Part shown: positions 38,540-41,689 of the stretch, piece after piece | Position numbering within the stretch: position 1 is the first letter of the stretch | Layout of the letters: each line of letters starts with the position of its first letter | Origin: Anaerococcus sp. mt242 | GTDB taxonomy: Bacteria; Bacillota; Clostridia; Tissierellales; Peptoniphilaceae | NCBI RefSeq assembly: GCF_016798225.1 | Contig: NZ_JAEUYX010000006.1 | Location: forward strand, 1-64,000 | Direction: 5' to 3' | Length of the DNA stretch: 64,000 nt | Made by a program: the position numbers and the translations under genes | The notes under the pieces: model-generated | Database searches by the model: none | Told to the model about the DNA's origin: nothing | What the model saw: the letters and a program-made list of their open reading frames with translations, nothing else

Positions 38540-40960
38540 ATGAATTGTACTAACTGCGGTGCAAAGGTAGATGATAGCGCGAGATTTTGTCCGGTTTGTG
38601 GCCACAAACTAAAAAGTGATACTCCGCATGCTCATCCGGAGGCCCCACAAGCACAGGCTTCTCCAGTAGAAAAATCTACCTATGAATCGATACAAAATAA
38701 AGAAAACTTAATAGAAAATCAAAAAAAATCAGAAGAGAAAAGTAAAAAAGAAAGCAAGATTCAAAGATTTATAAGTTCTTTTACTAGCAAAAAAACTCAG
38801 CCTAAGCCTAAGGAAGAAAAAATCGCTGATGAAATTTTTGATAATGACAATAATTACAGTCATTTAAATCAAAAAATTGAACCAGACATGGCAAATGAGA
38901 GTCAAATCCCTCCTTCATATTATGGTTATAATCCGGTAGAGGATAGGCAAAGAAAAGACTTAAGAAATCCCTCTTTAACATCTAAAAACAATCCAACAGA
39001 TTATGTCCAAAACAAGGTCTTACATAAGCAAACCGAAAGTATTTCTGAAGATAAAAATCCAAATCTAAAACAAAATCAAAATTATATTCCTAACAAATTT
39101 TCAAAAGAAACAAATCTTTCAAGTGAAATGCGAATTGCTCAAAACTTAGCGAGGGCAGAAGGTTATAATAATCAAGAAAATGAATCTTTAAATGACGAAG
39201 TAAGATATGATGATATACCGAATGAATTTGTAGAAGCAAGAATTGCAAGGCAAATCAATGGTGGTGGACCAAAATTATCTTACAGTAGAGCAGAAAATGA
39301 AGATTATAGGGCTGATGATAGGACTAATGCTGCAAATAGACCTGTGACAGGTGAAAATCAAAATTTAAATAGCTATGAAAAAGCCAATTTAGCAAATTCT
39401 ATAGAAGATGAGGCAAAAAATAAGTCTACAAAAGATGAAAAAGAGCCTTTCAAATTCAAACCAATTTATTTATTGCCACTTTTAATCATAGCTATAGCAC
39501 TGACGGGAGTGTACTTCCTTAAAAACCGTACGGCTCAAGAAGTAGAAATTGATCTTAGCCAGTACATTGATGTAACTTATAGCGGAGATGATGGTGCAGC
39601 AAGCCCAAGTGCTACTTTAAATACATCAAAATTACTAGCAGATTATGGTAATGATATTGCATATGTAAATAAAGATAGAAAAAATGATCAATACTCATCA
39701 CCAGCAAATCAATTGGTTGATGACCTAGAAAAAAGTACAAATTTCCAATTTAGCAAGGATAGTAATCTATCAAACGGTGAAGAAATCACAGTTGTAGCCA
39801 ATGTTTCTGATAGTGCAATAGCAGATGATTACAACGTTATGTTTACAAACACCATAAAATCAGTAATTGTAGATGGATTGATCACTCAAGAGTCTGTAGA
39901 CCCATTTGAATATATGGATGTAAATTTTGAAGGCGAAAGTCCAAATATTACACTATCTGCAAACTTTAGAGAAGATGCACCAGAATATCTTAAAAATATA
40001 GAAATAGCACCAAGCAAAACCAGTGAACTTGCTAGTGATGAAGAAGTAAATATTTCTCTAAACTTTGATGAAGAGGAACTATTTAATTCTTATGGTATAA
40101 GATTAAATCCAATTGATAAAACATTTACAGCCCCAGGTGAATCTGACCAAGCTGAGGAAGAAAATTCTGAAAAGGAAAATAATGATGAGGCTAGTGGAGA
40201 ATTAGGAGATGGATTTATCTCAACAATCGATAATCTTGATGAAGAATTATTAGGCACATTAAAATATAATGCTGGTCAATTGATTAAAGAAACATTTGGC
40301 GGCAGATCTTTTACAGAAATAAATGAAATAAATTATCTTGGAGCTATTACAGGCTCAGATGCAAATGCAGACCTTAAAAACAGGGTAATGCTAATTTATG
40401 AAGTAAAAGCCAAAGAAGACTACGAAGGTCGTTACACAAATGACTTTAGCTACTATACATTTGTAGAATATCAAAATGTAAAAGATAGTAAGGCAGAAGA
40501 TGGCAAATTCTACACAGAAGGGCCAATAACAACAGATAACGAAATCTTCCACAAATTCTTTGTAGAAGATGACTACACATATTATGAAATTCCATATTAT
40601 GGATTTGCATTCTTAGAAGAAGTAATATCAAGAGCCAACAATGCCCTATCAGGACTAAATATCGAAGACTCTATATCAGTAGATATTTCAAAATACTTTG
40701 AAAAATCTGACGGAGTTGCCGGTGAATACCAAGGCAATGGCACAAGGCTATCATTAAAATCTGATGGAACACTAAGATATAAACTAGATCAAAGAGTTCA
40801 TACAGGAAAATGGAGCGAAAATGGTTCTGATGTAAGCCTTACAATCCAAGGTGTAAATGTAGATACACCAATCAATGCGAAATTTGAAAACGGAGCGTTG
40901 AATGTAGCAGAGCAAGGCGAAATGGCAGGACAAACATTTAATAAAATGGAAACATATTAA
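38540..40960 (+). CDS. Large zinc-ribbon single-pass membrane protein (TcaA-like architecture)
   Basis: Of the 806 residues, 3-21 form a zinc ribbon (CTNCG...CPVCG). Residues about 30-300 are a long, hydrophilic, Q/N/K/E-rich disordered region. One membrane helix spans about 308-328 (YLLPLLIIAIALTGVYFL). The remaining 475 residues lie outside and include repeat-like beta domains with SxxELASDEEV / SNLSNGEEIT motifs, an acidic break near 535-553, and a C-terminal lipocalin-like beta region (about 730-800, GEYQGNGTRLSLKSDGTLRY). Zinc ribbon, helix and extracellular repeats resemble staphylococcal TcaA. Its function here is unknown. AAAGGAG precedes the ATG. Confidence 0.75.
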   Translation: MNCTNCGAKVDDSARFCPVCGHKLKSDTPHAHPEAPQAQASPVEKSTYESIQNKENLIENQKKSEEKSKKESKIQRFISSFTSKKTQPKPKEEKIADEIFDNDNNYSHLNQKIEPDMANESQIPPSYYGYNPVEDRQRKDLRNPSLTSKNNPTDYVQNKVLHKQTESISEDKNPNLKQNQNYIPNKFSKETNLSSEMRIAQNLARAEGYNNQENESLNDEVRYDDIPNEFVEARIARQINGGGPKLSYSRAENEDYRADDRTNAANRPVTGENQNLNSYEKANLANSIEDEAKNKSTKDEKEPFKFKPIYLLPLLIIAIALTGVYFLKNRTAQEVEIDLSQYIDVTYSGDDGAASPSATLNTSKLLADYGNDIAYVNKDRKNDQYSSPANQLVDDLEKSTNFQFSKDSNLSNGEEITVVANVSDSAIADDYNVMFTNTIKSVIVDGLITQESVDPFEYMDVNFEGESPNITLSANFREDAPEYLKNIEIAPSKTSELASDEEVNISLNFDEEELFNSYGIRLNPIDKTFTAPGESDQAEEENSEKENNDEASGELGDGFISTIDNLDEELLGTLKYNAGQLIKETFGGRSFTEINEINYLGAITGSDANADLKNRVMLIYEVKAKEDYEGRYTNDFSYYTFVEYQNVKDSKAEDGKFYTEGPITTDNEIFHKFFVEDDYTYYEIPYYGFAFLEEVISRANNALSGLNIEDSISVDISKYFEKSDGVAGEYQGNGTRLSLKSDGTLRYKLDQRVHTGKWSENGSDVSLTIQGVNVDTPINAKFENGALNVAEQGEMAGQTFNKMETY

Positions 40961-40966
40961 ATAAAT

Positions 40967-40999
40967 AAACCCGGTAAGGAAAACTTACCGGGTTTTTAT
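40967..40999. terminator. Bidirectional terminator between the zinc-ribbon gene and the tRNA array
   Basis: AACCCGGTAAG-GAAAA-CTTACCGGGTT is followed by TTTATTT and preceded by an A/T-rich flank. It can also stop minus-strand transcripts running out of the tRNA-derived array. Confidence 0.88.
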
Positions 41000-41040
41000 T
41001 TGCCAAAATTAAAAATAATCAGATAAAACTAATTCTATCA

Positions 41041-41101
41041 TGGTCGGTGTGAAAGGATTCGAACTTTTGAGCCTCATCTTCTCAAAGCCAAGAGCTGCCA
41101 A
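41041..41101 (-). repeat. tRNA-Pro-like truncated copy 1
   Basis: On the minus strand this segment reads from a D-loop-like TTGGCAGC through to a complete CACACCG-ACCA 3' end, with an intact TTCGAAT T-loop. The 5' acceptor strand and 5' half of the D arm are missing. The anticodon arm is replaced by a hairpin CTTTGAG/CTCAAAAG with loop AAGATGAGG. It is the copy furthest from the intact tRNA gene. Confidence 0.8.
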
Positions 41102-41135
41102 CATTTAATTAGTATATTAAATAAGCAATATAAAA

Positions 41136-41177
41136 AAGTAAAAAAATAAGCATTTATCGAACTGCTTTAATAATCAA
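41136..41177 (-). terminator. Degenerate terminator following copy 2
   Basis: On the minus strand AAGCA-GTTCGATAAA-TGCTT is followed by ATTTTTTT. The same sequence, almost unchanged, follows copy 3, so terminator and tRNA-like part repeat as one unit. Confidence 0.6.
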
Positions 41178-41237
41178 TGGTCGGTGTGAAAAGATTCAAA
41201 CTTTTGAGCCTCATCTTCTCAAAGCCAGCGCTACCAA
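41178..41237 (-). repeat. tRNA-Pro-like truncated copy 2
   Basis: On the minus strand it retains TTGGTAGCGC, identical to the D-loop and 3' D-stem of the neighbouring tRNA-Pro. It then carries the same CTTTGAG/CTCAAAAG hairpin as the other copies, a T-loop changed to TTTGAAT, and the CACACCG-ACCA end. This copy best shows the tRNA origin. It has no 5' acceptor strand. Confidence 0.82.
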
Positions 41238-41271
41238 AATTTAATTATTATCTTAAATAAACAAAATAAAA

Positions 41272-41312
41272 AAAGCAAAAAAATAAGCATTTATCGAACT
41301 GCTTTAAAATTA
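41272..41312 (-). terminator. Degenerate terminator following copy 3
   Basis: On the minus strand AAGCA-GTTCGATAAA-TGCTT followed by ATTTTTTT matches the one after copy 2. Confidence 0.6.
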
Positions 41313-41373
41313 TGGTCGGTGTGAAAGGATTCAAACTTTTGAGCCTCATCTTCTCAAAGCCAGTGTTACCAAC
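41313..41373 (-). repeat. tRNA-Pro-like truncated copy 3
   Basis: On the minus strand it reads TTGGTAACAC, then the CTTTGAG/CTCAAAAG hairpin, a TTTGAAT T-loop and the CACACCG-ACCA end. It starts 132 bases before the matching 3' end of tRNA-Pro in window coordinates. The inner core is identical in all three copies. Confidence 0.8.
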
Positions 41374-41410
41374 AATTAATTGTTAAGTAAATAATAAATA
41401 TAAAATGAGC

Positions 41411-41435
41411 AAAAAAAATAGCAGCTTATGCTGCT
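41411..41435 (-). terminator. Terminator of tRNA-Pro
   Basis: On the minus strand AGCAGC-ATAA-GCTGCT is followed by ATTTTTTTT, ten bases after the tRNA 3' end. Confidence 0.82.
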
Positions 41436-41444
41436 TTTTAATTA

Positions 41445-41521
41445 TGGTCGGGGTGAAAGGATTCGAACCTTCGACCTCATGTTCCCAAAACACGCGCGCT
41501 ACCAAGCTGCGCCACACCCCG
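41445..41521 (-). tRNA. tRNA-Pro (anticodon TGG), CCA encoded
   Basis: The minus strand gives a 77-base tRNA: acceptor CGGGGTG/CACCCCG, D-arm GCGC/GCGC with AGCTTGGTA loop, anticodon stem CGTGT/ACATG around loop TTTGGGA (anticodon TGG, proline), variable AGGTC, T-arm with TTCGAAT, and an encoded ACCA end. All four stems pair. It is the only complete tRNA gene in the window. Confidence 0.96.
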
Positions 41522-41539
41522 TTAAGTGATTACTATGTA

Positions 41540-41568
41540 AGTATACACCCTTTTTTTTACAATGTCAA
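41540..41568 (-). promoter_or_regulatory. Promoter of tRNA-Pro
   Basis: On the minus strand a consensus TTGACA (41563-41568) and TATACT (41540-41545) are exactly 17 bases apart, about 18 bases before the tRNA 5' end. It is the strongest promoter match in the window. Confidence 0.85.
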
Positions 41569-41689
41569 GTTTTTGTAAAAGTTTTTTAAAAAAAAGTTTA
41601 CAAAAGTAGATTTTGACCCCTTTCTTTTGAGAAGTCTGTTATAATAATACCATAAGCAAAATTAAAAGTAAACAAAATTGAGGAAAATA

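Follow-up and report, generated by a model that had tools for sequence, protein, structure and literature searches.

A tRNA gene followed by truncated copies of itself raises the question of whether the copies are products of decay or a relic that has acquired a new role. Three such copies lie behind tRNA-Pro(TGG) in a 64,000-nt stretch of the genome of Anaerococcus sp. mt242 (contig NZ_JAEUYX010000006.1; hereafter the window). The array is real and genus-wide, and its recurrence in other Anaerococcus species makes it more than chance; its constant core suggests that a broken tRNA gene has been put to new use.

Layout of the array behind tRNA-Pro(TGG)

The intact tRNA-Pro gene, with the anticodon TGG and an encoded CCA, occupies positions 41445–41521 on the reverse strand and was the sole tRNA detected in the window by ARAGORN and Rfam. 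Its promoter (41540–41568, reverse strand) consists of TTGACA, 17 nt and TATACT, agreeing with the consensus at 11 of 12 positions, and its intrinsic terminator lies at 41420–41435 on the same strand. The three truncated copies follow on that strand at 41313–41375, 41178–41239 and 41041–41104, with start-to-start spacings of the units of 132, 135 and 137 and CCA-bearing 3′ ends at 41313, 41178 and 41041. Their scores with model R1 were 63.1, 59.2 and 65.6 bits, respectively, the parent tRNA scoring 44; R1 was built from 33 of 40 listed stretches and contains copy 1 within its own alignment. Each copy retains a portion of the D loop, the T-arm, the 3′ acceptor strand and CCA, with the anticodon region rewritten; it lacks the 5′ acceptor strand and the D arm's 5′ half. 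Within the rewritten region lies an 18-nt core, at 41344–41361 in copy 1 (GGCTTTGAGAAGATGAGG), 41209–41226 in copy 2 and 41072–41089 in copy 3, all on the reverse strand. No tRNA was called on the window copies by ARAGORN or Rfam, and no cloverleaf with acceptor and anticodon stems was found in them. The genome holds one array locus of this kind; a Rfam tRNA search across it returned 32 tRNAs over the cut-off, none of them an array copy.

Behind each of copies 1 and 2, on the reverse strand, stands a near-identical weak hairpin and T-run (39 nt at 97%), at 41285–41304 (hand reading and repeat detection) and at 41148–41167 (hand reading; −2.7 kcal/mol, weaker than the −3 cut-off). Copy 3 lacks this element, and beyond it a strong two-way terminator (40967–40995, both strands) separates the array from a convergent gene ending at 40960. 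Of the three window copies, copy 1 alone passes the terminator cut-off, the stems after copies 2 and 3 being weak. The convergent open reading frame (38540–40960) begins with a zinc ribbon; since the accessible text of PMC8629427 predicts that Anaerococcus reads CGG as tryptophan, table 11 translations of the window's reading frames may be wrong at CGG codons. The initial annotation had described the tRNA, the three copies with their spacing, the missing 5′ acceptor strand and the shared weak terminator, and had derived the copies from a tRNA-Pro gene by tandem amplification with the terminator inside the unit, the copies resembling one another more than the parent; all of this is upheld here.

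The position of the window array between tRNA-Pro and the convergent gene, and the presence of serial terminators, would suit a back-up series that keeps tRNA-Pro transcription out of that gene, with the tRNA-like parts as passengers. The most constant part of the units is nevertheless the core, which lies outside the terminators, and we consider this explanation quite improbable.

Distribution, origin and mobile elements

The initial annotation had proposed counting copies at the same locus in relatives. Copies are present at the tRNA-Pro(TGG) locus in 16 of 31 Anaerococcus genomes (42 copies, 1–5 per genome). Three further copies at tRNA-Pro(CGG), in genomes G020 and G027, bring the total to 45, a count that leaves out parents, chance matches, a remnant in G012 and a remnant at the CGG locus of G029. 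Half of the core is missing from the G012 remnant, G011 has a doubtful remnant, and 13 of the 31 genomes show none; G014, which is near the window's species, is among the genomes without an array. On a GroEL tree of 30 of the 31 genomes, some nodes of which have low support, arrays occur on both deep branches, and the array is therefore probably ancestral to Anaerococcus, with several losses. Among 99 other genomes of the family, no match exceeded the parent's score under stricter filters (E up to 1e-8). The open-access literature searched, for such arrays in Anaerococcus or for arrays of truncated tRNAs, contained nothing on the locus.

Within a genome, copies often share their downstream spacer and terminator with the local tRNA-Pro, which indicates unequal crossing-over. 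In sister genera, a full tRNA-Pro(CGG) directly follows tRNA-Pro(TGG) at 8 of 10 loci (L356–L360, L362, L364 and L365), which had been chosen because they scored high with the model or had two matches side by side; the array may accordingly sit in place of a lost second tRNA-Pro gene. The copies are nearest the Anaerococcus TGG gene (mean score 28.8 versus 18.7–25.9 for four CGG genes), in a comparison in which 42 of the 45 copies come from the TGG locus, and origin from a TGG duplicate or later homogenization would explain this equally well. Within a clade, CGG-locus and TGG-locus copies have their D part in common, suggesting that the two loci have exchanged sequence. The tRNA-Pro(CGG) gene of G020 is itself internally deleted and is then followed by a copy (L065:5022-5065).

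The region has also been hit by mobile elements. In G017, three head-to-tail units of a 62.8-kb element separate tRNA-Pro from the array (G017:C1:140699-329225; the ends are in L233 and L067). An integrase gene (Pfam Phage_integrase) and one arm are identical in all three, and a 16-bp att core, CCTTTCACCCCGACCA, stands at every junction, the 3′ end of tRNA-Pro serving as attB. The triplicate arrangement could still reflect an assembly artefact. G028 has a related arm (77%) behind copy 1, and in G018 an IS110-family transposase gene lies between two array copies (L069:2342-3565). Dispersed repeats starting with CTGTCATATTGAGCG or close to it, which look like small mobile repeats, occur near arrays (beyond the last copy in L004 and L008; L066:4540-4740).

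These insertions would favour reading the units as what integrating elements leave at their attachment sites, or as landing pads for such elements, an idea related to the attachment-site scars that the initial annotation had listed. This reading was already weak, and the structure of the unit does not fit it: the left side of the copies is derived from the tRNA (13 of 18 core positions), not what an attR remnant would carry; the units often repeat the host terminator after CCA, unlike attR scars; and the 18-nt core, which is not part of the att core, is found nowhere else in the 31 genomes. Because the host terminator is so often repeated and the core falls outside the att core, the units are not scars, and a role as landing pads is very doubtful; the 15 viral contigs described below, which contain most of the core without a tRNA context, also speak against it.

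Constancy of the 18-nt core

The commonest core reads GGCTTTGAGAAG(G/A)TGAGG, with the G/A change at position 13 falling between clades, and the parent tRNA has TGTTTTGGGAACATGAGG at the corresponding place. The anticodon arm had been described as replaced, and this does not hold: no foreign sequence is present, and the core aligns base for base to the tRNA, with matches at 14 of 18 positions in the window and at 13 of 18 when the commonest core is taken, one base being inserted after the core. An exact 17-mer of the core, GCTTYGAGAAGRTGAGG, has 32 matches in the 31 genomes, every one inside these arrays.

We compared the rate of change in the core with that of coding positions. Across the 16 genomes, the 18 core columns require 8 parsimony changes. 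The same number of GroEL fourfold sites drawn at random require 45.1 on average (minimum over 20,000 draws, 18), and first and second codon positions of GroEL require 6.7 in the same comparison; these counts use one consensus per genome, which hides variants such as GGCTTTGGAAAGG. A2 comprises 44 of the 45 copies, the third copy of G025 being left out. Fourfold sites of the neighbouring ATPase gene show JC distances of 0.76–1.32 between the main clades (11 of the 16 genomes), and the spacers differ between clades to the point that they could not be aligned by eye. Upstream of the core, the 4.3 changes per column are an overestimate, as those columns are poorly aligned.

The distribution of changes within the copy bears on the possibility that the copies are plain pseudogenes, formed by tandem duplication, converted by the parent and among themselves, and decaying with no function. 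The 13 core columns shared with the parent show 2 changes versus 32.5 expected, and the five that differ from it show 6 versus 12.5 expected (P=0.064), about half the neutral rate and not significantly slower than neutral. At three of these five columns there are changes towards the parent's base, so that parental conversion may add to the constancy and may explain part of it. However, the segment from the T-arm to CCA, all of it homologous to the parent and no less open to conversion by it, has 28 changes in 28 columns, and a constancy that peaks in the core while this segment varies is a profile that parental conversion alone would not give. Core position 1, moreover, differs from the parent and is identical in 45 of 45 copies. 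The evident unequal crossing-over, with units that often match the local tRNA-Pro terminator, the decay of end copies and the many losses would all suit functionless duplication, which we regard as unlikely on balance and as less likely than the RNA-based explanation given below. Selection on the core is, from these comparisons, quite probable, and we take it to be the main cause of the constancy.

What has been kept is a linear stretch. The initial annotation had correctly seen that a central part stays while the flanks drift and had assigned this to a new hairpin, common to all three copies and possibly selected as a structure. In the window that hairpin, CTTYGAG/CTCRAAG, needs a bulged A and belongs to the predicted fold of only one of the three copies; no pair in it is changed on both sides across the copies, and its pairing (91.5% of cells) equals that in column shuffles (91.7%), so it was rejected as a conserved feature. 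An alternative pairing, GGTGA/TCACC, is formed in 180 of 218 cells in an uncontrolled count, and its mismatches, as far as they were read, lack changes in the partner. In the T-stem, both partners have changed in 2 cells, a number that 81 of 500 shuffles attain, and the covariation score is attained by 6 of 500, which gives weak support to a T-stem kept as in tRNA; its last pair is open in 17 of 42 distinct rows. Over the 45 copies, no conserved fold beyond dinucleotide shuffles was found (mean z 0.05). A coding core was rejected as well: read by eye in G019, its frame lacks a start codon and is interrupted by a stop immediately upstream.

A scan of all species recovered at least 118 stretches; in these and in 15 viral contigs that contain the 17-mer, 138 occurrences were scored. 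Among the best 30 of these 138, a tRNA-like continuation was present at five loci (L077, L087, L088, L118 and L170), four of which are Anaerococcus records; the letters of L170 are those of the G025 array. A phage origin of the core was rejected, as none of the 15 viral contigs has the 17-mer beside a tRNA part. In a Blautia metagenome-assembled genome (L125:5990-6031, reverse strand), a 24-nt match to the core and the next bases, GCTTTGAGAAGATGAGGCTCGAAG, lies in the leader of a glmS-like gene and is followed by TGTC and a T run, with no Rfam match up to E 1; it may be a chance match or a related attenuator.

Terminators, proposed read-through and comparison with known systems

Intrinsic terminators were called within 60 bases after 31 of the 45 copies, versus 5.8 in shuffles, leaving 14 copies with none called; the terminator stems of several copies are unlike the parent's (G004, G005, G021 and G024). 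By comparison with shuffles, the 45 copies had no promoters of their own on average (mean z −0.27 forward and −0.68 reverse), three G020 copies reaching z of about 2, and five tRNA-Pro promoters, the window's included, had z of about 4 to 5.4. Terminators without copy promoters would fit small RNAs that arise when transcription from the tRNA promoter runs past the tRNA's own terminator. Simple read-through is harder to reconcile with G002, G015 and G019, where 11 of 12 copies, read by eye, have a second terminator immediately upstream.

The best explanation, to which we assign a probability of roughly 0.38, is exaptation of a tRNA relic, with read-through transcription that starts at the tRNA promoter yielding small RNAs bounded by terminators. 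A tRNA-Pro gene relic would have lost its 5′ half and anticodon stem and been exapted, and amplification would have produced units that each contain the core, the tRNA 3′ end and a terminator. RNA polymerase starting at the strong tRNA-Pro promoter would read through the tRNA terminator, giving short RNAs that are each closed by the next terminator. Function would reside in the linear core, through base pairing or protein binding; copy number would set dosage, and output would follow tRNA-Pro transcription. RNA as the active form, made by this read-through, carries the same estimate. What we infer from the sequences in this account is the read-through, the RNA as active form, any target and selection as the main cause of constancy. 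Against it, recent duplication of whole units would also keep the terminators. The new tRNA-like small RNA that had been offered as an option survives in part: a read-through RNA is the best reading left, and its still tRNA-like character is contradicted by the open T-stem pair and by the failure of tRNA detection in the window copies.

The main rival holds that the core acts as DNA: behind tRNA-Pro it would be a recurring site for recombination or for a bound protein, and its transcription would not matter. It would account for the constancy of a linear sequence without pair covariation and for copy promoters not beyond chance. It would also account for the last copies of the arrays: in G006 and G018 the 3′ tRNA part is gone and the core is intact, and in G025, G024 and G017 the same part is gone with 1–3 changes in the core. 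A DNA-level role, however, gives no reason for the terminators after 31 of the 45 copies, and the absence of the exact core from the rest of the 31 genomes also speaks against it; we judge it rather unlikely.

Returning to the read-through RNAs, the architecture of the array is like that of the RtT RNA (RttR, RF00391) of E. coli tyrT/tyrV, its sequence is not. In both systems tandem units lie behind a tRNA gene, each with the tRNA 3′ end and CCA, and copy number varies; the E. coli tyrTV yardstick has 178-bp repeats, each with a tRNA-Tyr 3′ end and an RtT RNA, and RtT occurs in 4655 of 5426 E. coli genomes at 1 to 9 places each. These E. coli places (L355:705-1263 and genomes) are themselves a large natural series of copy-number variation. 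The Anaerococcus array differs in its parent, tRNA-Pro rather than tRNA-Tyr, in its distant host, in the intrinsic terminators of most units and in keeping more of the tRNA. RF00391 gave no match in the window, none up to E 10 in 40960–41640 and none in the loci of seven array genomes, whereas E. coli gives four; similarity of the core to RtT outside the T-arm was not significant (reached by 11% of shuffles), and homology to RtT was rejected for want of support beyond the T-arm. According to the accessible part of PMC4986893, RtT RNAs are released from tRNA operon transcripts and modulate the stringent response. Their role is otherwise poorly understood. RttR is listed at 97±9% in one screen's table, with no further entries in the accessible part of that source (PMC4606813).

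Two other systems offer partial parallels. The RrA/B/F RNAs of E. coli rrn operons are made by read-through between two terminators (PMC8144298, accessible part); they belong to rRNA operons, are not said there to be tRNA-derived and have transcripts shown, whereas the Anaerococcus array is known from sequence alone. The pseudo-tRNA tRNA-Other of Bacillus cereus is likewise a tRNA relic that serves outside translation, and it neighbours an integrated island; as described in the accessible part of PMC3399842, it is tRNA-sized and contained in a longer RNA with predicted promoters, unlike the tandem, truncated and promoterless Anaerococcus copies.

Set beside these systems, the locus presents at one site a natural series of a broken tRNA gene after it has left translation, running from the intact parent through copies in 16 species to remnants and complete loss. 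Its core, in an array unrelated to RtT and of the same build, is short, sharply bounded and constant and can be tested directly. Tentatively, the array may represent a genus-wide family of tandem small RNAs, bounded by terminators, with a core from the destroyed anticodon arm, regulating in step with tRNA-Pro transcription. If that is true, an RtT-like system would have been invented independently in Anaerococcus, and arrays of tRNA-tail RNAs would be a recurrent route to new bacterial regulators.
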